Below, piece by piece: positions 4,850-21,225 of a stretch of 64,000 nucleotides of DNA (position 1 is its first letter; the number at the start of each line of letters is the position of its first letter). A program made the position numbers and the translations under genes. Source of the DNA: an uncultured Bacteroidales bacterium (lineage in GTDB: Bacteria; Bacteroidota; Bacteroidia; Bacteroidales; FEN-979); NCBI GenBank assembly GCA_903903985.1, contig CAIVAT010000187.1:1-64000 (forward strand), read 5' to 3'. Under the pieces are notes generated by a model. That model ran no database searches, was not told the origin of the DNA, and saw only the letters and a program-made list of their open reading frames with translations.

Positions 4850-5590
4850 TCATAAACACCCTTCATCAGCGAATGAATAGTAAGTATCGTTTCCAACAAT
4901 GATGTGATCCAGCACCGCTATTTCAAGCAGTTTCCCGCCATCCACGATCTTTTTTGTGATCTTGGCATCTGCTTCCGATGGTGTCGGGGTCCCCGAAGGG
5001 TGATTATGACCCAGGATGATATTGCAGGCTTGATTATCCAGGGCAAACTTCCAGATCTTCTTCGGGTCCACCACCGTTCCGGAGATACCCCCTTCTGAAA
5101 TCCTCAGCTTCTTCATGATCTTGTTTGCCCGGTTCAGGGTCAGAATCCAGAATTCCTCATACGGCAGATCCCCGATCAGGGACTGAAAGATTTCAAAGGC
5201 ATCCCGCGATGAGCTGATCTTTGTCCTGCTGGCTGCTTCTGATTCATTCCTGCGTCTTGCCAGAGAGAACATGGCAACGATAGCGAGGGCACGGCATTCC
5301 CCGATCCCTTTGATCTTCTGCAATTCCGTGTAGCCGAACTTCCAAAGGTCTGCCAGGTTATTCCCGCTGGCCATCAGCAGGGTCTTTGCGATATCCAATG
5401 CGTTTTCCCCTGAAATCCCGCTGCCTATGACCAGACTCAGCAGTTCTGCATCAGACATGCTGGAGGTTCCCTTCATCAACAGCTTGTAACTCGGCAGATC
5501 ATCCTCGGCCCAGAGCTTCATGGGAAGACCATGTTTGTAATAGGTCAGCGGATCAAGAACGGTAGGTGTGTTTAAAAATGACTTTTTCAA
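4850..5590 (-). CDS. radC: RadC family protein (JAB/MPN domain)
   Basis: LGHNHPSGTPTPSEAD...VLDHIIVG motif; TTG start at 5590 directly after the leader RNA. Confidence 0.9.
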   Translation of the reverse strand: MKKSFLNTPTVLDPLTYYKHGLPMKLWAEDDLPSYKLLMKGTSSMSDAELLSLVIGSGISGENALDIAKTLLMASGNNLADLWKFGYTELQKIKGIGECRALAIVAMFSLARRRNESEAASRTKISSSRDAFEIFQSLIGDLPYEEFWILTLNRANKIMKKLRISEGGISGTVVDPKKIWKFALDNQACNIILGHNHPSGTPTPSEADAKITKKIVDGGKLLEIAVLDHIIVGNDTYYSFADEGCL

Positions 5591-6665: not shown

Positions 6666-8174
6666 TTATGACTTGCCAAGGAACAGCATATCATGTGCAG
6701 GCTCACTGCTGCCCATACTCTGAAAGAACATCCAGTAGTAAAGATTATCTACGGCATCACTCAGGTCAGTGGCTTTCCACCTGGGCTGATCTGTCTTTCG
6801 TTCAGATGATTTGTCCTTCTTAAATTCAGAAGGCAGAACTGGCGCTGCATCCATTGACACAAACGTCTCCCGGGCATTGTTCATGTTTATCTTAAATGAT
6901 GGGGCGTTAGGATTATCATTAGACAAAAACTTATGCCAGAAGAGAAACTTATCCATGTGAGATATCTCATGCAATTCAGCACATAGCGTGACTGACCAGC
7001 CGGCACTGCTGAGTTGGTCCATTACATCATCGAAATATGTTTGCCTGCTGGCTGCATCATTGCGCCTGGTACCGTCACTGCCACCGTATAAGTTGATATG
7101 CTTATTCTTGTGGTATTGATAGTAGTCAATGAAATTGGTTACCAATACTTTGAGCGTTTCGTTTTCAACATAAAAGTTCTTTATGATTGGAAACTCATTT
7201 ACTGATCTGTGCCATTGGCTTATGATCATGCAGTTTTGAGTAGAACCGAAATCAAATGAACCGTACAGATATTCATCCGGCAGGCAATCTGCATCTCCCC
7301 TGCAGTCAAGGCCGCCCTGCTCCCCCAGGTCATGACTGATCGCGTCATAAAACGAATAGTTGTATGCATCATAATAGCAGTGTGCATTTTCATTGAGGGA
7401 TGGATAAAAACCGTTGATATTTCTTTTCCGCCTTTGGTTATCGACTTCTATTTCATAAACCATTTGGGGAAGTACCCGGTTGAGGTCACGGAAATATCTT
7501 GAACCAAGAATGAATTCATTTTCCCGGGCACTGGCTTCAAGGAATAGGAATTCCTTCGGGAATTCGGTCATCAGCTCTTCATAATCAAAAACCCAGTCAC
7601 CTGCAGGGGTCAATGGTTGTGATCCCAGGAACATGGTCCCATGGTGAAAACGGACATGGCCAAAGCGGTCATTGTTGCCGCGATTAGCAGGCAATACATC
7701 GCTGTCAATGGCTGATTTTTTCAGCAGGGTGGACTCGTCGAACACCATGTAATCATAGGATCCGCTGCGGGCCATTTCCGGCCGGTCGAAAGAATTATAT
7801 TCAACGACAAAGCCATTGAAGAAATGAATGCAATTTGTGTAATCAAGCGGTGGCTGAAACGGTTCAAGCCAATTGAACTTTTTTGGCGCTTTCATCCCGA
7901 CAAAATAGTGGATACCTCGGTAGAGACCACGGCGTTCCCAGTGATCGATGATCGGTGGGAGTGATTTTGTTCTTATGTGGAAATAGGTAAGGCCATTGAG
8001 GGAAATTTTTCCACGCGGCATGTTTTTAAGGCAATCTATCACCTGGTCGGCAATGATGGTAGTCTTGCCGACGCCTCTTCCTCCGATAAACATTTTATGT
8101 GGCCGGCTGGAGAGTTTTATAATGGTTTGTGGTTCATTATAAAAAGGCGCTTCAGTAATTTGCGGTACAATCAT
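6666..8174 (-). CDS. Phage large terminase-like ATPase/nuclease
   Basis: Walker A GGRGVGKTT, Walker B-like YMVFDES, nuclease-like YGSFDFGSTQN. Confidence 0.8.
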   Translation of the reverse strand: MIVPQITEAPFYNEPQTIIKLSSRPHKMFIGGRGVGKTTIIADQVIDCLKNMPRGKISLNGLTYFHIRTKSLPPIIDHWERRGLYRGIHYFVGMKAPKKFNWLEPFQPPLDYTNCIHFFNGFVVEYNSFDRPEMARSGSYDYMVFDESTLLKKSAIDSDVLPANRGNNDRFGHVRFHHGTMFLGSQPLTPAGDWVFDYEELMTEFPKEFLFLEASARENEFILGSRYFRDLNRVLPQMVYEIEVDNQRRKRNINGFYPSLNENAHCYYDAYNYSFYDAISHDLGEQGGLDCRGDADCLPDEYLYGSFDFGSTQNCMIISQWHRSVNEFPIIKNFYVENETLKVLVTNFIDYYQYHKNKHINLYGGSDGTRRNDAASRQTYFDDVMDQLSSAGWSVTLCAELHEISHMDKFLFWHKFLSNDNPNAPSFKINMNNARETFVSMDAAPVLPSEFKKDKSSERKTDQPRWKATDLSDAVDNLYYWMFFQSMGSSEPAHDMLFLGKS

Positions 8175-9643: not shown

Positions 9644-10314
9644 CAGGGTAAAAGTTGCAGGATTTGTGAGAGCTGGGCTTCCCATTTTGAAAGGCAGCCG
9701 GTATTGTATATGATTGAAGCAGCCTTTTCAGGCAGTCCAATCTGTTTTTTGTAATAGGAGATCTTTGATCGAATGTTCGAGCGTCGTCTGAGAAGTTCAG
9801 CTTCTGTTAATCCGGTCAATGATATGTCGGAAACCACGGCCTTCATTTCCTGCTCCGGAGGTAATACTCCATGAATCTTGAAATGTTCATGCCGCTCATA
9901 TGCTTTTGTGATTTCATCAGAAAGATCAAGTATCTGCAGGGCATTTAACCTGCGCTGGTCTTCAGGCACAAGCTCCAGCGTAGCATGGAGATGGTCTCGG
10001 ATTTTCAGTTTTGATTTTATCTGGTCGAAAAGCAACTGATCATCCCTGGATTGTGAATTGGAATTGCTAACCTGTTGATTTGCAATAGCGGCAGTTTCGG
10101 GCGGCATAAAGGGAGTACTCCTTTTTGGTATTGCGGGAGATACATGCAGCAGCTTTCCCAGTTCATAGATCAGGTTTTGTGTTGATGTCTCCGACTGATC
10201 GCTGCGCTCAAAGATCCGTTTCATGTTTTGGCTCTGCCCAAAACGAGAATAGAGCTGCACCCCTATTGCATAATCACGCTCGGAATTAAGCCAGGAGTTA
10301 ATTTCATTGTTCAT
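9643..10314 (-). CDS. Phage-operon hypothetical protein (paralogue of the truncated ORF at 22437)
   Basis: 223 aa; DYAIGVQLYSRFG...LIYELGKLL and LHATLELVPEDQRRLNALQILDLSDEI. Confidence 0.55.
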   Translation of the reverse strand: MNNEINSWLNSERDYAIGVQLYSRFGQSQNMKRIFERSDQSETSTQNLIYELGKLLHVSPAIPKRSTPFMPPETAAIANQQVSNSNSQSRDDQLLFDQIKSKLKIRDHLHATLELVPEDQRRLNALQILDLSDEITKAYERHEHFKIHGVLPPEQEMKAVVSDISLTGLTEAELLRRRSNIRSKISYYKKQIGLPEKAASIIYNTGCLSKWEAQLSQILQLLP

Positions 10315-11014
10315 TGAGTAGAAGTTTTTGGGTTCTTAAGAATTCGTGCCAATCGGGAGCTTTGCGGTCGGGCGCGAAGGAGAATGACTTCTCATGTACC
10401 CGATATTTCATAAGGATGTCCTCCCTATTATATATGGTGTAGCCTGCCAGAAGGAATTTCACCCACAGGGCATAGTCTTCCGCCAGGGTAGATGGAGTGG
10501 CTCCATAGCCACCAACTTTCGTGATAGCCTCCTTGCGGAAGGCTACGCCCGGGTGATTGACAAACCAATGCCCGTTCATCCAACATGCTTTCTTCCTGGT
10601 AACTTCAGATGGATGGTTACTGTACCAATCCATTGTTTTGTTGAACAGGTGTATTTGCACCCCGCAAATATGCCTGTCAGGATGGTCCGTAAAATACTGG
10701 TCATGGGTTTTGAGCAGTTTTTTTTTCGCAATATCGTCGGCATCCATGCGAACGATCAAATCGCCATGGCAATGCTGAAGGCCGAAGTCCAGCGCTGCAG
10801 CGATTCCTTCGTTTTCGTTTTTCCGCACAATGTTGACGCAGCAGTCACGCTGAGTAAGGCCGTACAAATATTTAGTGAGCGGTCCTCTGGGGTTGTTGTC
10901 ATCAACAATGATGAACCTAAAATCAGGATGATCCTGGTTGATGATTGATTCAACAGCCTCCTGAACCCATTCAACCGGAGTTGAGAATACCGGCATTAAT
11001 ACATTGATCGTCAT
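10304..11014 (-). CDS. Family 2 glycosyltransferase
   Basis: INVLMPVFSTPVEWVQEAVESIINQ...FIIVDDNN...VRMDADDI. Confidence 0.9.
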   Translation of the reverse strand: MTINVLMPVFSTPVEWVQEAVESIINQDHPDFRFIIVDDNNPRGPLTKYLYGLTQRDCCVNIVRKNENEGIAAALDFGLQHCHGDLIVRMDADDIAKKKLLKTHDQYFTDHPDRHICGVQIHLFNKTMDWYSNHPSEVTRKKACWMNGHWFVNHPGVAFRKEAITKVGGYGATPSTLAEDYALWVKFLLAGYTIYNREDILMKYRVHEKSFSFAPDRKAPDWHEFLRTQKLLLNEQ

Positions 11015-12441
11015 GATTTACTGAAATATATGGGAATTAATTTATCATCATGCCAATGGACTTTGAAGAAGGCATTTTTGTACTGGTTGCCCGGGAAGAG
11101 GTTGGGCTTGAATTTTGTCAGTTTGCAGATCACCGGAAAACTCAGTTGATCCTGGTACGTCCATTTGATAATTTCCCACCACCATTTAGCCATCACCTCC
11201 CGTAGTGTTGCTGAATGGATTCTGCGAACCATAACGCCACAGGCAAACAGTCCCCCATGCCTGGGGTAAATGGTGCTGTAAAATTCAATCTGGCCATCAA
11301 TGTTCTGGCTTTGGTATTTTACCAAAGGTTTTGATTCTATTGCTTCTTCATAAATGCAATCACGATCAGGATGCGTGTATAGCGCCATATCCTGATCACC
11401 CAATGAGTCAAGGCAATGTATGACGAAATCGGGAGAAGTGATCTCAATGGAGCCATCAACGAAAATCAAAATGTCATACCGGTCGAGCGTGTATGCTTCC
11501 CAAGGGAAGAGTTTGAAGAACTTTGCCCGAAGCCTGGCCGGGAGGTCCGTGGTTGGATACTGAACCGGGATGATTTTCCAGCGCTGTCCGTCGGATTGTT
11601 CATTGGATGGGGTTGCATGTAAAACGTCCAGTGAGTCTGAGATACAAATGAAATCTGCATCGACAGACTGTTTAGGAACCGGATACAAGCATGCATAACC
11701 TCCAAAGATGGTAGTGTAAACAGCAACTTTTCTGTACGTCGGCTTTTCGTTGAACACATCGAGCCTGTCCATGATGAGGGATTTCCACTGGGCACCATAG
11801 AATTTCTCCATTCCCCTGCCAAGTTCATTTTTTGCGGTTGCTTCATAATCTCGCAGCGTGCCATGGGCATTGATTGTCTGCTGGCCGATGTGGTAAAAGA
11901 ATGATTTATCGTCACAGTACTGCCTGAGACCGGCCGCTTGCATCTTCAGGGACCAGTCGAATTCTACGCCATAACCTTTTGTAAAGGATTCTTCAAAGAA
12001 TCCGATTTTCTCAAACACATCGCGACGGATTACCGGAGCGGTGAACTCAATGCATTTCACCTCACGGATCCCTGGGGAGCCGTTATTTTTACACTGCTTC
12101 ATCCAGCAGTTATACGATGGCGTGATCATCGAATAAGGATGAAGGTCCATCAGATCATGAATCCGTTTAATGGAATTCTGAGATATTTCGATGTCAGAAT
12201 TCATGAGCCAGAACGCCTGGTAATATCCTGCATCATTTTTCATGATCTCCCTGATTGCCCTATTCCAATTTGCAGTGAATCCCAGATTGGTTTCAAAGCG
12301 AATGACCCTTTCCTTGGGAAGCAGGGTAAGCATGTTGATGTCTGAACCGTTGTCAATGACAATGGCATCGGGTACTGATTCACAAAGCCTGAGCGTAAGC
12401 TCTGGCGTGTTGTAATGCAGTATAAGTTTGGCAATGTTCAT
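11011..12441 (-). CDS. Two-domain glycosyltransferase: GT2-like N-terminus plus TOD1/MUCI70 (DUF616)-like C-terminus
   Basis: N-term AIVIDNGSD...LMNSDIEIS; C-term YDILIFVDGSIEI...GLFACGVMVRR...WTYQDQLSFPV. Confidence 0.75.
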   Translation of the reverse strand: MNIAKLILHYNTPELTLRLCESVPDAIVIDNGSDINMLTLLPKERVIRFETNLGFTANWNRAIREIMKNDAGYYQAFWLMNSDIEISQNSIKRIHDLMDLHPYSMITPSYNCWMKQCKNNGSPGIREVKCIEFTAPVIRRDVFEKIGFFEESFTKGYGVEFDWSLKMQAAGLRQYCDDKSFFYHIGQQTINAHGTLRDYEATAKNELGRGMEKFYGAQWKSLIMDRLDVFNEKPTYRKVAVYTTIFGGYACLYPVPKQSVDADFICISDSLDVLHATPSNEQSDGQRWKIIPVQYPTTDLPARLRAKFFKLFPWEAYTLDRYDILIFVDGSIEITSPDFVIHCLDSLGDQDMALYTHPDRDCIYEEAIESKPLVKYQSQNIDGQIEFYSTIYPRHGGLFACGVMVRRIHSATLREVMAKWWWEIIKWTYQDQLSFPVICKLTKFKPNLFPGNQYKNAFFKVHWHDDKLIPIYFSKS

Positions 12442-13193
12442 AATTCAAACCGGGATTTGTGTGGAAACGTGGTTTTAAGGAAGCTTTTCAGATTGTCCGT
12501 CAAGCCGGCGTTATTGTGGTTGAGATACGTCTTCCCCTTGCACTTTTCGATCAGATCGCCCTCGGATGAATCGTAGAATGGTCCGTCGGCGTTATCATAG
12601 AATTGAATGGCGAAATCTTTGCTGAACAGAAGTGGTTCGGAAAATGGGAAAAAAGTGTTGAAGTACAACGACGATGTGAGCAGTCGTTTTTCGAGCGCTG
12701 AATATGCAGTGATGACCCATTGCATTTTCTCTTTGTTGAACAGTTCCGGAAGATGGGTTTCCGTGTTCCAGCCAGGATAACCCTTGGCTATGAGCACATC
12801 AAGGGTGCGATACAATTGTGACCACCAAGTGCTGGTTCTTTCCGGAACATCCTTGAATGGATACATTGCCTTGAACCGGCCAATTGTGGTGAGATCAACA
12901 TCCGTCAGAATGTAAATGTCATCATACATCCGAATGTAGTGAAGCGAAGTATCGGGATGGGCGTTGAAAAGAAGTTGTTTGGTGATGGCATCGTATAGGG
13001 TATTCTCCTGGATACTTTCTACCCTGTCATGCAGAATATGAAGGAATGAAGCGGGATTGGCCCAGCATGGCACATCCCCTACGATGACAACCCGGAAATC
13101 AAATTTGAAGTACCTTTCGATGGAACGAAGCGAATAGCGGAGTTCTTCCCAAGTGGCTTCTCTATCGAAGTAAGGATAATAGACATCAATCAT
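12438..13193 (-). CDS. Glycosyltransferase/Stealth-like phosphotransferase-type protein
   Basis: LRYSLRSIERYF...HYIRMYDDIYIL; sits in the GT trio. Confidence 0.5.
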   Translation of the reverse strand: MIDVYYPYFDREATWEELRYSLRSIERYFKFDFRVVIVGDVPCWANPASFLHILHDRVESIQENTLYDAITKQLLFNAHPDTSLHYIRMYDDIYILTDVDLTTIGRFKAMYPFKDVPERTSTWWSQLYRTLDVLIAKGYPGWNTETHLPELFNKEKMQWVITAYSALEKRLLTSSLYFNTFFPFSEPLLFSKDFAIQFYDNADGPFYDSSEGDLIEKCKGKTYLNHNNAGLTDNLKSFLKTTFPHKSRFEL

Positions 13194-14614: not shown

Positions 14615-15583
14615 TTAGTTTGATGCACTTCCGGCATCGGGAACAAAAGCCCAAACTACTTCTGCAAGTGCGAAGCCTACGTTTTCATGCCAGTCGGCAT
14701 ACAGGAATACCTGGCGCTTGGAGGTTTCAACGAAAGGTTTGCTGGCGCCATCGTTAAGTTTTAAAAGGCGAATGAAGTTTGCCTTGGGTGTGGCAAAAAG
14801 GATATCGCTGCCGATCATTGAAGGCAAAGCCTGCAATGTGAGGGGTGTGCCATCGATTACAACGCTTCCGAACTTCCCGTAATCCTGGTTGGCTCCATAC
14901 AGGTCCCTCCTTTTGCGGGTGTAGAAAGTCAGATTCTCAGGGGAGCAAAAAACATTCATCGGAATGGATTTATAAGGTCCGGTGATCGTGTCAGCGAACT
15001 TCTCCACCTGGTCAATTACGTTGGATGCGGTGATGGCCACGTTTTTGTTGGCGAAATTCATTTTAGAGGATCCACCCAAAGCGTGTTGAGCTTTGAGAAT
15101 GGTAAGGAACCCGTCCATTGATTTGCCGGTAGCCTGGGCGGTGCCATCAACGATGGCAGCGTAGGAACCACTACCGATCAGGGAGAGTTCACGATCCTGG
15201 GCAACCTGCTCAAGGAGCATTTTGTAAAGGATGTATTTTACCAAAGGCCATTCTTCCCGGGACTTTGACTCATCGGCCAGGAAGCCAAGCCAGGAACCAT
15301 AAATTTCATCAGGATAAATTTCAACATCGAATTTATGACGTTTGTGTGTGATGATCAGCGGGGCGAAAGCAGGAGTACCTTTAGGCGTCCATCCTTTCTG
15401 AAATCCCTGAACGATAGCTGCGATGGTAGCCTGAGCTGCTCGGAAGTCGTCATTTTGCTTCACGGTAGTCATGAACTTCATCGATTCCGTTGGTTGGGTG
15501 AGAACCTTCAGAATGTCTTTTTCGCTTGTGCCCAAAAAGGTACCGAAGTCCTGTTTTAATTGAGCAATGTCGAGTACTGCCAT
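14615..15583 (-). CDS. Putative HK97-fold major capsid protein
   Basis: 322 aa, directly downstream of S49 protease/scaffold gene; MNVFCSPENLTFYTRKRRDLYG..., FLYADWHENVGFALAEVVWAFVPD. Confidence 0.65.
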   Translation of the reverse strand: MAVLDIAQLKQDFGTFLGTSEKDILKVLTQPTESMKFMTTVKQNDDFRAAQATIAAIVQGFQKGWTPKGTPAFAPLIITHKRHKFDVEIYPDEIYGSWLGFLADESKSREEWPLVKYILYKMLLEQVAQDRELSLIGSGSYAAIVDGTAQATGKSMDGFLTILKAQHALGGSSKMNFANKNVAITASNVIDQVEKFADTITGPYKSIPMNVFCSPENLTFYTRKRRDLYGANQDYGKFGSVVIDGTPLTLQALPSMIGSDILFATPKANFIRLLKLNDGASKPFVETSKRQVFLYADWHENVGFALAEVVWAFVPDAGSASN

Positions 15584-15611: not shown

Positions 15612-16868
15612 TTAAATATTTTCGTCTGCGATCCTGTTGTGCAGGAACTGGTCGGAGGCAATGGCATCGGCTGACTTGTCAGCGGCTTTGCCGCGACGGG
15701 TTTCTGCACCTGCATCTTCTGCCTTTAAAGCTTCATGCTGGCGAACGGTTTCAGCATGAACGCTCTGTAATGCAGTGTGGTCGGCGGTAAGCGCCTCAAA
15801 CTTTTTCGTTAATGTTGCCATGGCAGCATCGTGGGTGGCGATGATGGTGTTCTGGTCGGCGAGTTTATCGTTGACCTGGCCAACCATTTCTTCAGTGAGT
15901 TCCTTGCTTTCAATGTTCTCAGTGAAATTGAAAAACGATGCGATGGCAGTCCAGACTGCAAGCATTTTGATACTTTTCATATTGTGGTTTATTTGAAGGT
16001 TTGAATTGGTTGCAGTAATCGAATCGGCCTGCTGCAGGGCATACTCGTATGATCCGATTTCATCAACGAGGCCCAGGGCAATGGCATCACTGGCAAAATA
16101 TGTTTTTCCGGAAAGTGTGGAAGCAGCCAGTGAAGGCCTGTTTGCCGTAACGGATGCGTGGAATTTTGCATTGATGCGATCAAGCAGATCATGGCGAAGC
16201 TGATCGTAATTGCCTGCTCTGAGGTCCGCGAGGTGTTGGTTTTTTTCAGTGCTCAGCGTGGCATACACTTCATGTATCACAACACCGGCTTTTTCGAAAT
16301 AGGGCTTCATATCCATGTACTCAAGCATGGTCCCGATGGAACCCACGATATCAAGGTCGGAGCTGCAGATGATCTTGTCAGCCCCAGAAATAATCCAATA
16401 GGCTGCGCTGGCCGCCATTCCTTCCACGTAGGCCACAACCGGCTTGGAGCAATTCGTAACTGCATCCGAAAGGATGTCGGTATAGGAAGTTGTCCCCCCG
16501 GGAGAACTGACGACCAGGAGAATTGATTTTATGTTTGGGTTTGCATCTGCCGATTTGATATCCTTGGTGATGGAGACTGATCCCCTGGGGCCGCATTCAA
16601 CATCATCTTTCATGATGATGCCCCGTATTGGAATAATGGCAACAGAACCTTTAGAAAGGTTGGCAGCGTTCAAAGGCTGCGAAGCACTCTGCACTCCGCC
16701 ATCAAAACTCAGTACAAAAGGCCGGTTTGATTCCCGGGCTTTTGAAAAGTCTTCACCAATGATCCGATCTCCACGAAGCAGGGAAACAAGCATGGCGCCA
16801 TACGCATCAGGATTTTCAGCGTGAAGGAGCCAGTTTGAAGTGAGGATATCTAAAAGAAAAGGGTTCAT
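15612..16868 (-). CDS. S49 (SppA-like) phage prohead protease with C-terminal scaffold-like region
   Basis: VAIIPIRGIIMKDD...VSSPGGTTSYTDIL...YVEGMAASAAYWIISGADKI; coiled C-terminus. Confidence 0.85.
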   Translation of the reverse strand: MNPFLLDILTSNWLLHAENPDAYGAMLVSLLRGDRIIGEDFSKARESNRPFVLSFDGGVQSASQPLNAANLSKGSVAIIPIRGIIMKDDVECGPRGSVSITKDIKSADANPNIKSILLVVSSPGGTTSYTDILSDAVTNCSKPVVAYVEGMAASAAYWIISGADKIICSSDLDIVGSIGTMLEYMDMKPYFEKAGVVIHEVYATLSTEKNQHLADLRAGNYDQLRHDLLDRINAKFHASVTANRPSLAASTLSGKTYFASDAIALGLVDEIGSYEYALQQADSITATNSNLQINHNMKSIKMLAVWTAIASFFNFTENIESKELTEEMVGQVNDKLADQNTIIATHDAAMATLTKKFEALTADHTALQSVHAETVRQHEALKAEDAGAETRRGKAADKSADAIASDQFLHNRIADENI

Positions 16869-18160: not shown

Positions 18161-18424
18161 TTATTTAAAAAATAGCGGTGTATTGCAGACGAACACCCGC
18201 TTATCTTCAAGATGCGGCCCAAGGATCTTCCTTGTGAGGTTCATCGAGACATAGCAGACCTGATAAAAGGATGCATTATCAATCCATTGAATGAGGAACA
18301 TCAGGCCAATCCTGCGTTTCCCACCGACAATAAAATCATCGATGGTTGCGAGGCGGAAGTTTTCCGGAAGCTCACTAAAGTAAGCGAAGCCGCTTGGATT
18401 TTTCTTAAAAGGTGGCAAGTTCAT
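18161..18424 (-). CDS. Hypothetical small protein
   Basis: 87-aa ORF in the same operon direction. Confidence 0.4.
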   Translation of the reverse strand: MNLPPFKKNPSGFAYFSELPENFRLATIDDFIVGGKRRIGLMFLIQWIDNASFYQVCYVSMNLTRKILGPHLEDKRVFVCNTPLFFK

Positions 18425-18486
18425 TTTGAGTGGGGTTTGGCTGAATTTTCAAAAAAAAAAAAACATTGGCTTTCGCCAGAGGCTAA

Positions 18487-18612
18487 TTACCGTTCCAACA
18501 GTCCAACAGTCCAACAGCGTCCAACACGTTCCAACAGGTTCCAACACTCTTTTTATCTTTAATATATTATAAATCAATAAAATATAAAACTGTTGGACTG
18601 TTGGAACGGTAA
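18487..18612. repeat. Iteron-type putative replication origin: 24-bp perfect inverted repeat, six direct CCAACA iterons, AT-rich core
   Basis: TTACCGTTCCAACAGTCCAACAGT (18487-18510) versus its exact reverse complement at 18589-18612; CCAACA at 18495, 18503, 18511, 18521, 18531, 18541; AT-rich 18547-18589. Confidence 0.65.
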
Positions 18613-18653: not shown

Positions 18654-20846
18654 TCAGAATGGTGGTTCAGGGTTGAGATCAATCTCAGCCTGCAGGTCTA
18701 CGGGCTGTTTTTCCGATTTATCTTCCTTTTCAGCAGCGCTTTTCGCATTTGAAAAGGAATCACGAATAGTCCTTTCAAGGTTCACATCCAATTCGCCCGG
18801 GCCATATTTGAATACATAAGCAGAAGTGTTGCTTGTATCGAAGCGAACCCCGGGAGCATTGCCAAGGTAAGACTTGTGATTTTTGAGGTAATGGAGAATT
18901 GAAACCATGTCGATCCCGTTTTTACCAGTCTGCTGGCGCCATTTTTCCATATAAAGCGGATGGACCCTTGAAAACCGGATAAAAAGAAGGGTTAGAGGTT
19001 CATCAAACGGACCGGTTTTTTCATTACCATCCTTATCTGTGTATGACAGGGAGGGAGTGAAATTGATTTTGAAATCCACCCCTGACTGGATCTTACCTTC
19101 ATCGAGCAAATACTCAACGGTCTTCCAGAAACTTGAAATAGACTCTGAGCTGCTGATCTGCTTTGACATGGAAGCGATATCATGTTTAACCTGCGCGTAA
19201 AGAGTTTCATACGTGAAACTAAGCTCAAGGGGGTTTGCGCTTTCAAGGATTATCTTCACTGGAGCAAGCAAACAGCAATAATTGCGAACAAGTCTTTCAT
19301 CGTAAGGAAGTTTTTCCTTAATAAGGTCTGCCTTTAATTCTTCCTGGATAGCGGAAAAGGTCATTGCGAAACGCTCCTCCATTTGTTTGCGGAAATCAAC
19401 GATATTGCAGACAAGGGAACTGATCCCCTGAACCTCTAATCTTTTAAGTTCTTCATACCTGTCCATTTCATGTTTTGAATATTTCTTTTTGATAAAGGAA
19501 AGAAGGCATGACCTGGTTAAAAGGGCGTTGTCATCAAGCGTGGGAAGGTACTGACCGGATATGCAGAATGCGCCATTGATTTTATTGATCATGGTTCTGC
19601 TGTCGTTTGAAAGTTTTCCTTTCTCATGCCCTACCCCATCATAGGCAGCTTTCAATAACTGAAATCGCCGGGGATCAATGTCATTGGTATATTCATCACC
19701 CCAAACAATAGAATTCTTTGCCCGGGAAGCCTTTCTTGAAAGGCCGACATGGGTTCCGGAATTGAGGTTGAAAGCAGGCATATTGTGGTAAAAAAGGTTT
19801 GATAGTGACCATGCCAATTGACTTTTTCCGGACTGCTTTTCACCGAACAGGAACAGGTGAGGAAAAATCTTGTATTTCTCATAGATAAGATCGCGAAAAA
19901 CGGTAGCGATGGCAAAAGAGACAGCGATAACGGCATTGCTACCATAAACATCGGTCATGAGAAGCGACCACTCAGCAAAGGTGCATTGAGCTTCATTATA
20001 GACGAAATAGCGGTCATTTTCATACTCATCATCGTCCTCCCGGACACCGCTGTACACCACTGAGAATGCCGGAGAGAAGTACTTTTTACCATTATGGGTT
20101 GTTATCCCGAATTCATCTACAGGCTGCCAGGAACCGTTATAGATGCCATTGGCGAAAGCGTAAAATCCTTCACGCTGCCACCCTAAAGTTTTGAGTTCGT
20201 TACACACAGGAAAATCGTTTGAAATGAATTTTAAAATTTTGAGGTAGTGTGCCTTGCCACCGGACCAGATAAAGTTTCCTTCACCATAAACATAAGCCTG
20301 GAACTGCTCAACTGAAATAAAGTTCTTGGATGGTATGTCAATGATCTTTGACTCACCATGCTCATTCGTGATACGCACCAGGCGTTTGTTGTCGATTTTG
20401 GAATAGATGTGGAATAAGGGAACGATGATGAAATTTGATCCGCAAACCGGACCTCCCTCTTTGGTATGGAACCAATAGCAGTTCTTCCGGACAAACCAGC
20501 CCTGTTTATGTTCAGGGTCATTTTCATCATCGATGAAGTCCCGGGGCTGTTCATTTGTGGCCTTTTCAAAGGTTATTCTCCTGGACTCAGTGACAATCTT
20601 TTTGATTGTGTCATTAAAGGTTTTTTTTGAAACCTTGTACTTTTTTGATAGGTAGCTGATGATCAGGTCAGCTTGGGGGCCATTGTTCAGGGCAACAAGA
20701 TCCTGGCATATTTCATTGACAGCGTCGCCTTTCCGGATAATGTTATCTGCAGCCGTTTCAAGACGGATTTCTGCAGAAGAAATGACAGATTCTTTTGCAC
20801 CGGCATCAGTTTGGATCAGGTCAATCCCTTCAGGAAGTTCATTCAT
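18654..20846 (-). CDS. Phage/satellite primase-helicase-like protein (DUF927-like ATPase)
   Basis: Walker A LFLFGEKQSGKSQLAWSLSNLF; NSIVWGDEYTN Walker B-like. Confidence 0.7.
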   Translation of the reverse strand: MNELPEGIDLIQTDAGAKESVISSAEIRLETAADNIIRKGDAVNEICQDLVALNNGPQADLIISYLSKKYKVSKKTFNDTIKKIVTESRRITFEKATNEQPRDFIDDENDPEHKQGWFVRKNCYWFHTKEGGPVCGSNFIIVPLFHIYSKIDNKRLVRITNEHGESKIIDIPSKNFISVEQFQAYVYGEGNFIWSGGKAHYLKILKFISNDFPVCNELKTLGWQREGFYAFANGIYNGSWQPVDEFGITTHNGKKYFSPAFSVVYSGVREDDDEYENDRYFVYNEAQCTFAEWSLLMTDVYGSNAVIAVSFAIATVFRDLIYEKYKIFPHLFLFGEKQSGKSQLAWSLSNLFYHNMPAFNLNSGTHVGLSRKASRAKNSIVWGDEYTNDIDPRRFQLLKAAYDGVGHEKGKLSNDSRTMINKINGAFCISGQYLPTLDDNALLTRSCLLSFIKKKYSKHEMDRYEELKRLEVQGISSLVCNIVDFRKQMEERFAMTFSAIQEELKADLIKEKLPYDERLVRNYCCLLAPVKIILESANPLELSFTYETLYAQVKHDIASMSKQISSSESISSFWKTVEYLLDEGKIQSGVDFKINFTPSLSYTDKDGNEKTGPFDEPLTLLFIRFSRVHPLYMEKWRQQTGKNGIDMVSILHYLKNHKSYLGNAPGVRFDTSNTSAYVFKYGPGELDVNLERTIRDSFSNAKSAAEKEDKSEKQPVDLQAEIDLNPEPPF

Positions 20847-21225
20847 TTTTCAAAGCCCTCTCAATATTTTCAAGGTCCATAGCAATGACAACATCAACAT
20901 GCTTAGCGAATTCCTCAAGCTGGCCTGTGAGTCTTAATCTTCTGATGACATTAAATTGGGTAACCAGATCTTCAAGATGCATGTTCCTGGCACGAAAATA
21001 TCTGTTTTCCATTTCAAGCTGTTCGTTCCTGCGAAGGATCCATTCAAGGCTTTTCATGTAATCCCATGCATACTTCATGACATCAGAAGTCCTTTTCCAA
21101 AAAAGCCAGGATTCAGTTTTACCGGATTTCAATTCGGATCTTCCCAGAAGAGCGTTCACCTCATGAATCCGATCCATGAGCATACTGGGGGCTCCCCCAT
21201 AAATGGTTTGTGCATCAATTTCCAT
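20839..21225 (-). CDS. Hypothetical phage-element protein
   Basis: 128-aa ORF overlapping the helicase gene start. Confidence 0.45.
   Translation of the reverse strand: MEIDAQTIYGGAPSMLMDRIHEVNALLGRSELKSGKTESWLFWKRTSDVMKYAWDYMKSLEWILRRNEQLEMENRYFRARNMHLEDLVTQFNVIRRLRLTGQLEEFAKHVDVVIAMDLENIERALKNE

Follow-up and report, generated by a model that had tools for sequence, protein, structure and literature searches.

A two-sided iteron array directly 3' of a predicted initiator helicase gene is the probable replication origin of a temperate tailed phage in a Bacteroidales genome

Results

The window (the whole 64,000-nucleotide stretch of DNA that was analysed) belongs to an uncultured Bacteroidales bacterium. 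Window base 1 is also the first base of its contig, C187, so that the prophage is truncated at this end and only part of it is visible. The genes and features around the repeat element are as follows.

6666-8174, minus strand: terminase large subunit (phrog_2, 1.4e-7)
14615-15583, minus strand: putative major capsid protein, so assigned from its place after the protease and conserved in related phages (phrog_21862, function unknown)
15612-16868, minus strand: head maturation protease of the S49/ClpP type (phrog_53, 8.7e-48)
18161-18424, minus strand: conserved 87-aa ORF, next after the putative origin in most close relatives
18451-18475, minus strand: short GC stem TGGCGAAAGCCA (minus strand) followed by a T-run, a possible weak intrinsic terminator past the array, with similar sequence in relatives
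18487-18510, plus strand: outer arm of the inverted repeat, two TCCAACA units with an 8-bp step, forming the distal end of the array
18494-18547, plus strand: direct iteron array, six TCCAACA units (TGTTGGA on the gene strand)
18547-18590, no strand: AT-rich core, a putative unwinding element holding the recurring TATTGATTTATA / AAATCAATAA stretch
18589-18612, minus strand: inner arm of the inverted repeat, two opposite-orientation iterons, closest to the helicase stop codon
18654-20846, minus strand: 730-aa putative initiator helicase (AAA+ core, predicted fold)
20839-21225, minus strand: 128-aa ORF directly upstream of the helicase gene, conserved in related elements

The repeat element sits between the 730-aa gene and the 87-aa ORF, 41 bp past the stop codon of the former (42 bp in the first-pass annotation). 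Its arms, 18487-18510 and 18589-18612, are complementary at 24 of 24 bp, confirming the perfect inverted repeat with two CCAACA units per arm that had been claimed. Direct CCAACA units start at 18495, 18503, 18511, 18521, 18531 and 18541, reproducing exactly the proposed steps of 8, 8, 10, 10 and 10 bp, while inverted units (TGTTGG) start at 18591 and 18599; written as a 7-mer, the iteron is TCCAACA, with six direct and two inverted copies. The core between the facing units, previously put at about 43 nt, is 44 nt long and 89% A+T. When 7-mers repeated in two orientations were scored in 637 overlapping 300-bp windows across the 64 kb, the element reached 32, the best score of all (median 11, 99th percentile 19, next unrelated window 21), and none of 40 dinucleotide shuffles of the region attained it. 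The stem and T-run at 18451-18475 were missed by a consensus terminator scan, leaving a weak candidate. The 87-aa ORF may be part of a replication or lysogeny module.

Iterons of many replicons also have a regulatory role, and two weak promoter-like matches were seen, as would suit an operator for transcription control by the helicase or a repressor instead of an origin. However, the site is 3' of the helicase gene, no consistent promoter was found, and control of transcription leaves the AT-rich core and the two-sided layout unexplained, so that we give this explanation very little credence.

The 730-aa protein carries a Walker A motif (GEKQSGKS) in its AAA+ core, a C-terminal winged-helix-like domain (residues ~570-690) and an N-terminal DnaG-like helical remnant (residues ~15-100). 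Sequence searches against Pfam, NCBIfam and PDB gave no match, and its sequence matches were confined to phrog_22657 and a DNA primase family. An AlphaFold model built on a 48-sequence alignment (pLDDT 82.7), which replaced a 12-sequence model (53.6), had SCCmec Cch (5dgk, E 2e-14) and SaPIbov1 Rep (8tch, E 1.5e-11) as its top structural matches in the PDB, followed by MCM, poxvirus D5/E5 and SaPI5 PriRep; the protein is predicted to be an initiator helicase of the SaPI Rep/Cch fold with a C-terminal DNA-binding domain. The "helicase-primase" label that the gene had been given does not fit this protein, no recognisable primase domain (CHC2/TOPRIM) being present. Long relatives have DnaG zinc finger, DNAG_N and TOPRIM domains ahead of the helicase, forming DnaG fusions. 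The 730-aa protein begins past these domains, and its residues ~15-100 show weak matches (E about 1e-3 to 1e-8) to ~630-690-aa ORFs resembling host DnaG, so that we read it as a DnaG-helicase fusion lacking its primase part. Residues 15-100 look like a helical segment left from a lost primase domain.

Helicase homologues were found in viral contigs, Bacteroidales genomes and cultured phages, and rarely in plasmids. Arrays in these relatives were scored as 7-mers with one mismatch allowed, against an empirical control in which the threshold was the score passed by 1.0% of 1171 control windows from the loci themselves; this scoring replaced exact 6-mer counting, which missed arrays with mixed units or imperfect arms (L009, L010, L012 and L022). 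The layout is present directly 3' of the helicase gene in 28 of the 30 close relatives with enough 3' sequence to be counted, 24 of them above the threshold and four (L010, L012, L022 and L059) with visible mixed-unit arrays; the array is absent from this place in L054 and L070. Among distant relatives, whose proteins are mostly 1000-1300 aa long, 20 of 28 exceeded the 1%-false-positive threshold. No array lies directly 3' of the helicase in L091, L038 and L044, nor is there an iteron array directly 3' of the distant homologues in Porphyromonas gingivalis prophages, Cellulophaga phage Ingeline and a Microcystis phage (L117, L118, L119, L120, L125, L126 and L127). The arrayless loci indicate that the wider family does not always keep an origin at the helicase 3' end.

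Read from the stop codon, the conserved order is one or two units, an AT core with a ATTGATTTATA-like stretch, and opposite-orientation units at 10, 10, 10, 8 and 8 bp, a register that recurs in relatives with other unit sequences. Facing units are exactly 51 bp apart in 12 loci that between them use five different units, when each unit may have one mismatch; most other loci have distances of 43-44, 53-54, 61 or 64-65 bp. In some distant relatives, among them L036, L041 and L042, an inner array is flanked by three units at 8-bp steps to its left and by another 8-bp cluster to its right. Across the whole 43-kb genome of the relative G105, the array ranks first among repeat clusters and holds five of the six TCCCTACA copies; the GC-skew check that had been suggested, run on this genome, revealed no switch at the array site, which counts against an origin. 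The cultured Flavobacterium phages laban6-1 and 1H have TCTCAAC units directly 3' of their helicase homologue, with a similar core in laban6-1.

The unit itself changes widely. Close relatives use TCCAACA, TCCTACA, CCCTACA, ACCAACA, AACTACA, ACCTACA or TGCTACA, and the units of distant relatives include GTTCCAA, GTGCCAA, ATACTAC, AGCTACA, TTGTAAC and AAGACAA. The arm unit equals the unit of its own array in 20 of 24 loci, and equals that of a locus with another unit in 5 of 470 comparisons. Such a change matched on both sides of the core is what is predicted for a two-sided array read by one protein.

The inverted repeat might instead act as a hairpin, whether as a regulatory RNA or terminator, a pRN1-like stem-loop origin or an origin of rolling-circle replication. 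Its strand folding is far above that of shuffles (z -9.1 for DNA, -7.6 for RNA), a T-run follows the array, and in pRN1 the primase-helicase gene is directly followed on its 3' side by a stem-loop that is essential (PMC4234260). However, the long stem is not what relatives conserve: their arms can be as short as one or two units, whereas direct repeats persist at unchanged spacing, and the arms agree at 192 of 196 unit positions as against 9 of 14 at the spacer base. A stem would also need no four to six same-orientation units at a 10-bp step, and an Rfam search of the element returned no credible family. We therefore regard a hairpin function as very unlikely.

Since pac sites typically contain direct repeats and a terminase is encoded by these phages, the element might be a DNA-packaging (pac/cos) site read by that enzyme. 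The terminases of L011 and L050 are 70% and 72% identical to that of the window, and their helicases 91% versus 55%; the TCCAACA unit occurs in L011 only. Across relatives the unit tracks helicase relatedness and not that of the terminase or capsid protease, the array persists in L053, where the terminase is merely ~30-36% alike, and in the window the terminase gene is ~10 kb away from the array. A packaging site was rejected on this uncoupling, its remaining probability being very small. On the sequences compared, the array goes with the helicase gene and not with structural or packaging genes.

A windowed comparison pointed to two protein regions, residues 397-445 and 613-673, in which divergence tracks unit divergence (permutation p ~0.003 for the best windows, uncorrected for phylogeny or window number); residues 613-673 belong to the winged-helix-like domain predicted at the C-terminus. 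Both regions are offered as a lead, their link to the unit being only suggestive.

The host genome holds three further helicase-origin copies (C150, C24 and C167); the 126-bp element is found there as one 95% copy (C150) and two diverged ones (C24 and C167), each directly 3' of a helicase paralogue. A 24-bp terminal inverted repeat with several copies per genome could be taken for an inserted MITE-like repeat, or for a chance arrangement. Against this, each of the four copies in the genome is found 3' of a helicase paralogue, no target duplications were found in the host genome, diverged copies with other units retain the spacing and the array score is far beyond controls, reducing the chance of this explanation to almost nothing.

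In C150 the origin is 95% identical to that of the window and the helicase end 80% (last 76 aa), with just 49% for the protease; in C167 the protease is 76% identical and the iteron unit is different. Since the origin/helicase and the structural genes of C150 differ in their relatedness to the window, modules are exchanged. The four related modules of this one assembly (C187, C150, C24 and C167) use three different iteron words; the assembly is fragmented (87% complete, 3.8% contamination), so that the four elements may not all reside in one cell. The C167 copy adjoins conjugation-like genes (L010 13012-14953, TraK/TraB-like by eye), reflecting either insertion into a conjugative element or misassembly.

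The virion genes of the window are those for the protease, the terminase and the putative capsid protein, and tail genes would fall past the contig end. In close relatives there are, in addition, genes for an integrase, an endolysin, a tape measure protein and a portal-like protein. Each of the 15 viral records that hold a helicase homologue also carries a relative of the window terminase, and in 12 of these the identity is at least 63%. The relative G105 (43,171 bp) combines in one genome the gene set expected of a temperate tailed phage, namely a terminase, a head protease, an integrase, a repressor and genes for tail and lysis; it has an integrase, a CI-like repressor, a 707-aa helicase, head genes, a weakly matched portal, a tape measure protein and a GH108 endolysin. 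Helicase-terminase distances in G104 and G105 agree only when G105 is read as a circle, and judged from these gene distances both look like complete permuted genomes. A genome-integrated copy in G025 (L063/L075) shows, by eye, terminase, RadC and DNA cytosine methyltransferase-like genes, then portal-like and endolysin-like genes.

The full virion gene sets of relatives indicate that the window element is to be read as a phage and not as the satellite that had been proposed: these relatives are temperate tailed phages with complete genomes, and the contig start cuts the prophage of the window. A satellite or cfPICI identity was rejected on the portal-like, tape measure, endolysin and integrase genes of relatives. 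An iteron plasmid of the RepA type was rejected as well, given that plasmid homologues are few (three plasmid records only, each with a distant helicase homologue) and that the protein is a predicted helicase, not RepA. By its gene content, the element is most simply the early region of a full temperate phage with a tail, of a type that lives in lake Bacteroidales.

Several other genes of the window were noted. A RadC-like gene (4850-5590) lies on the terminase side of the prophage, and in G025 a RadC-like gene likewise follows the terminase (L075 605-1345). Three glycosyltransferase-like genes (10304-13193) lie within the head/packaging block; the trio occupies an equivalent place in G105 (L081 1323-4182), and at least one of them occurs in C167. 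Three giant minus-strand ORFs (2808, 3052 and 2741 aa; window 27368-58099) are outside the prophage.

Discussion

The reading of the element as a replication origin with SaPI-type likeness, first made from the window alone, is strongly supported by the conserved architecture, the two-sided co-change of the unit and the predicted SaPIbov1 Rep/Cch fold. We infer origin activity and consider the element to be, with high probability, an initiator-helicase origin from which a temperate tailed phage, integrated into the genome of a Bacteroidales host, replicates. Cch and SaPIbov1 Rep are self-loading initiator helicases with origins immediately 3' of their genes, and by analogy the 730-aa protein would attach to both sets of iterons, open the core and load itself; the iteron-binding protein could also be another phage protein. 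In the mechanism proposed for the 730-aa protein, its C-terminal winged-helix-like domain would bind the TCCAACA iterons, with the 10-bp-stepped units beside the core setting protomers on one helix face and the 8-bp-stepped, opposite-orientation units on both sides nucleating two facing helicase assemblies. Both assemblies would then melt the 44-bp AT-rich core, allowing the helicase to self-load on the exposed strands for a bidirectional start of replication. Priming would be left to host DnaG, because the 730-aa protein is without the DnaG-type primase domain of its long relatives.

Origins of this kind are known, and the novelty lies in the carrier, an initiator line fused to DnaG, the 10/8-bp grammar and how far the unit has changed. 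Fillol-Salom et al. confined this origin layout to PICIs among known bacterial replicons; judged from the genomes compared here, a PICI-only view does not hold, the layout being found also in full Bacteroidota phages, and this correction bears on the source of satellite replication modules. With only modest confidence, we favour a broader model in which the PICI-type origin is not satellite-specific but a widespread initiator-helicase origin of Bacteroidota temperate phages, in which the DNA-binding domain of the initiator and its iteron word (mostly TGT-W-G-N-N-N on the gene strand) co-evolved via many re-specifications at fixed spacing; co-resident prophages with different words may thereby avoid cross-initiation, and satellites may have taken the module from phages. 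The probable origin of a large, little-studied group of Bacteroidota phages is placed at a predictable spot, and its variants form a ready-made set of initiator/iteron pairs with which DNA recognition and opening by a self-loading MCM-like helicase can be studied. An incomplete literature search found no paper on iteron origins of Bacteroides prophages. If the origin of the streptococcal phage Sfi21 lies 3' of a primase gene, the novelty of the Bacteroidota phage origin would be reduced further.

Among known systems, the SaPI origin has two iteron sets flanking an AT-rich stretch directly 3' of the initiator gene (PMC6092414), and the C-terminal domain of SaPI Rep acts on iterons directly downstream of its gene (PMC7581432). 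The element shares with SaPI/PICI origins its place right after the initiator gene, the iteron sets flanking an AT stretch, the predicted initiator fold (8tch) and units that vary between elements. By contrast, the carriers here are helper-independent temperate tailed phages of Bacteroidota hosts, the long relatives of the window protein are fused to a DnaG (CHC2-TOPRIM) primase, and the 10/8-bp step grammar is fixed. The 730-aa protein also departs from PICIs and SaPIs in having no primase encoded with or fused to the initiator, and primase has been reported to be non-essential for SaPI replication (PMC7581432).

The best structural match is Cch of SCCmec (5dgk), and the C-terminal domain of Cch2 binds iterons downstream of its operon, for which direct and not inverted repeats are needed (PMC7581432). 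However, SCC elements are not phages, no more than three iterons (AAGTG) have been reported there, and sequence identity over the structural alignment is ~12%. In the satellite P4, the alpha protein fuses initiating helicase and primase (PMC7145576), and with ori/crr it likewise provides an initiator helicase acting on its own iterons (PMC6092414); it differs in that the window protein is without a primase domain and its site lies directly 3' of the gene. In pRN1, too, the replication gene is followed directly on its 3' side by an element of ~100 bp that is essential (PMC4234260), but its conserved stem-loop is without iterons, whereas here iterons and spacing are conserved and arm length is not. 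Finally, the Flavobacterium phages laban6-1, 1H and relatives (Duneviridae) share iterons (TCTCAAC) 3' of the gene and, in laban6-1, a AAAATCAATAAATTA core, although protein identity is 23-24% and their protein is a long, TOPRIM-containing one. Because these cultured phages have an equal layout, the proposed origin is directly testable.
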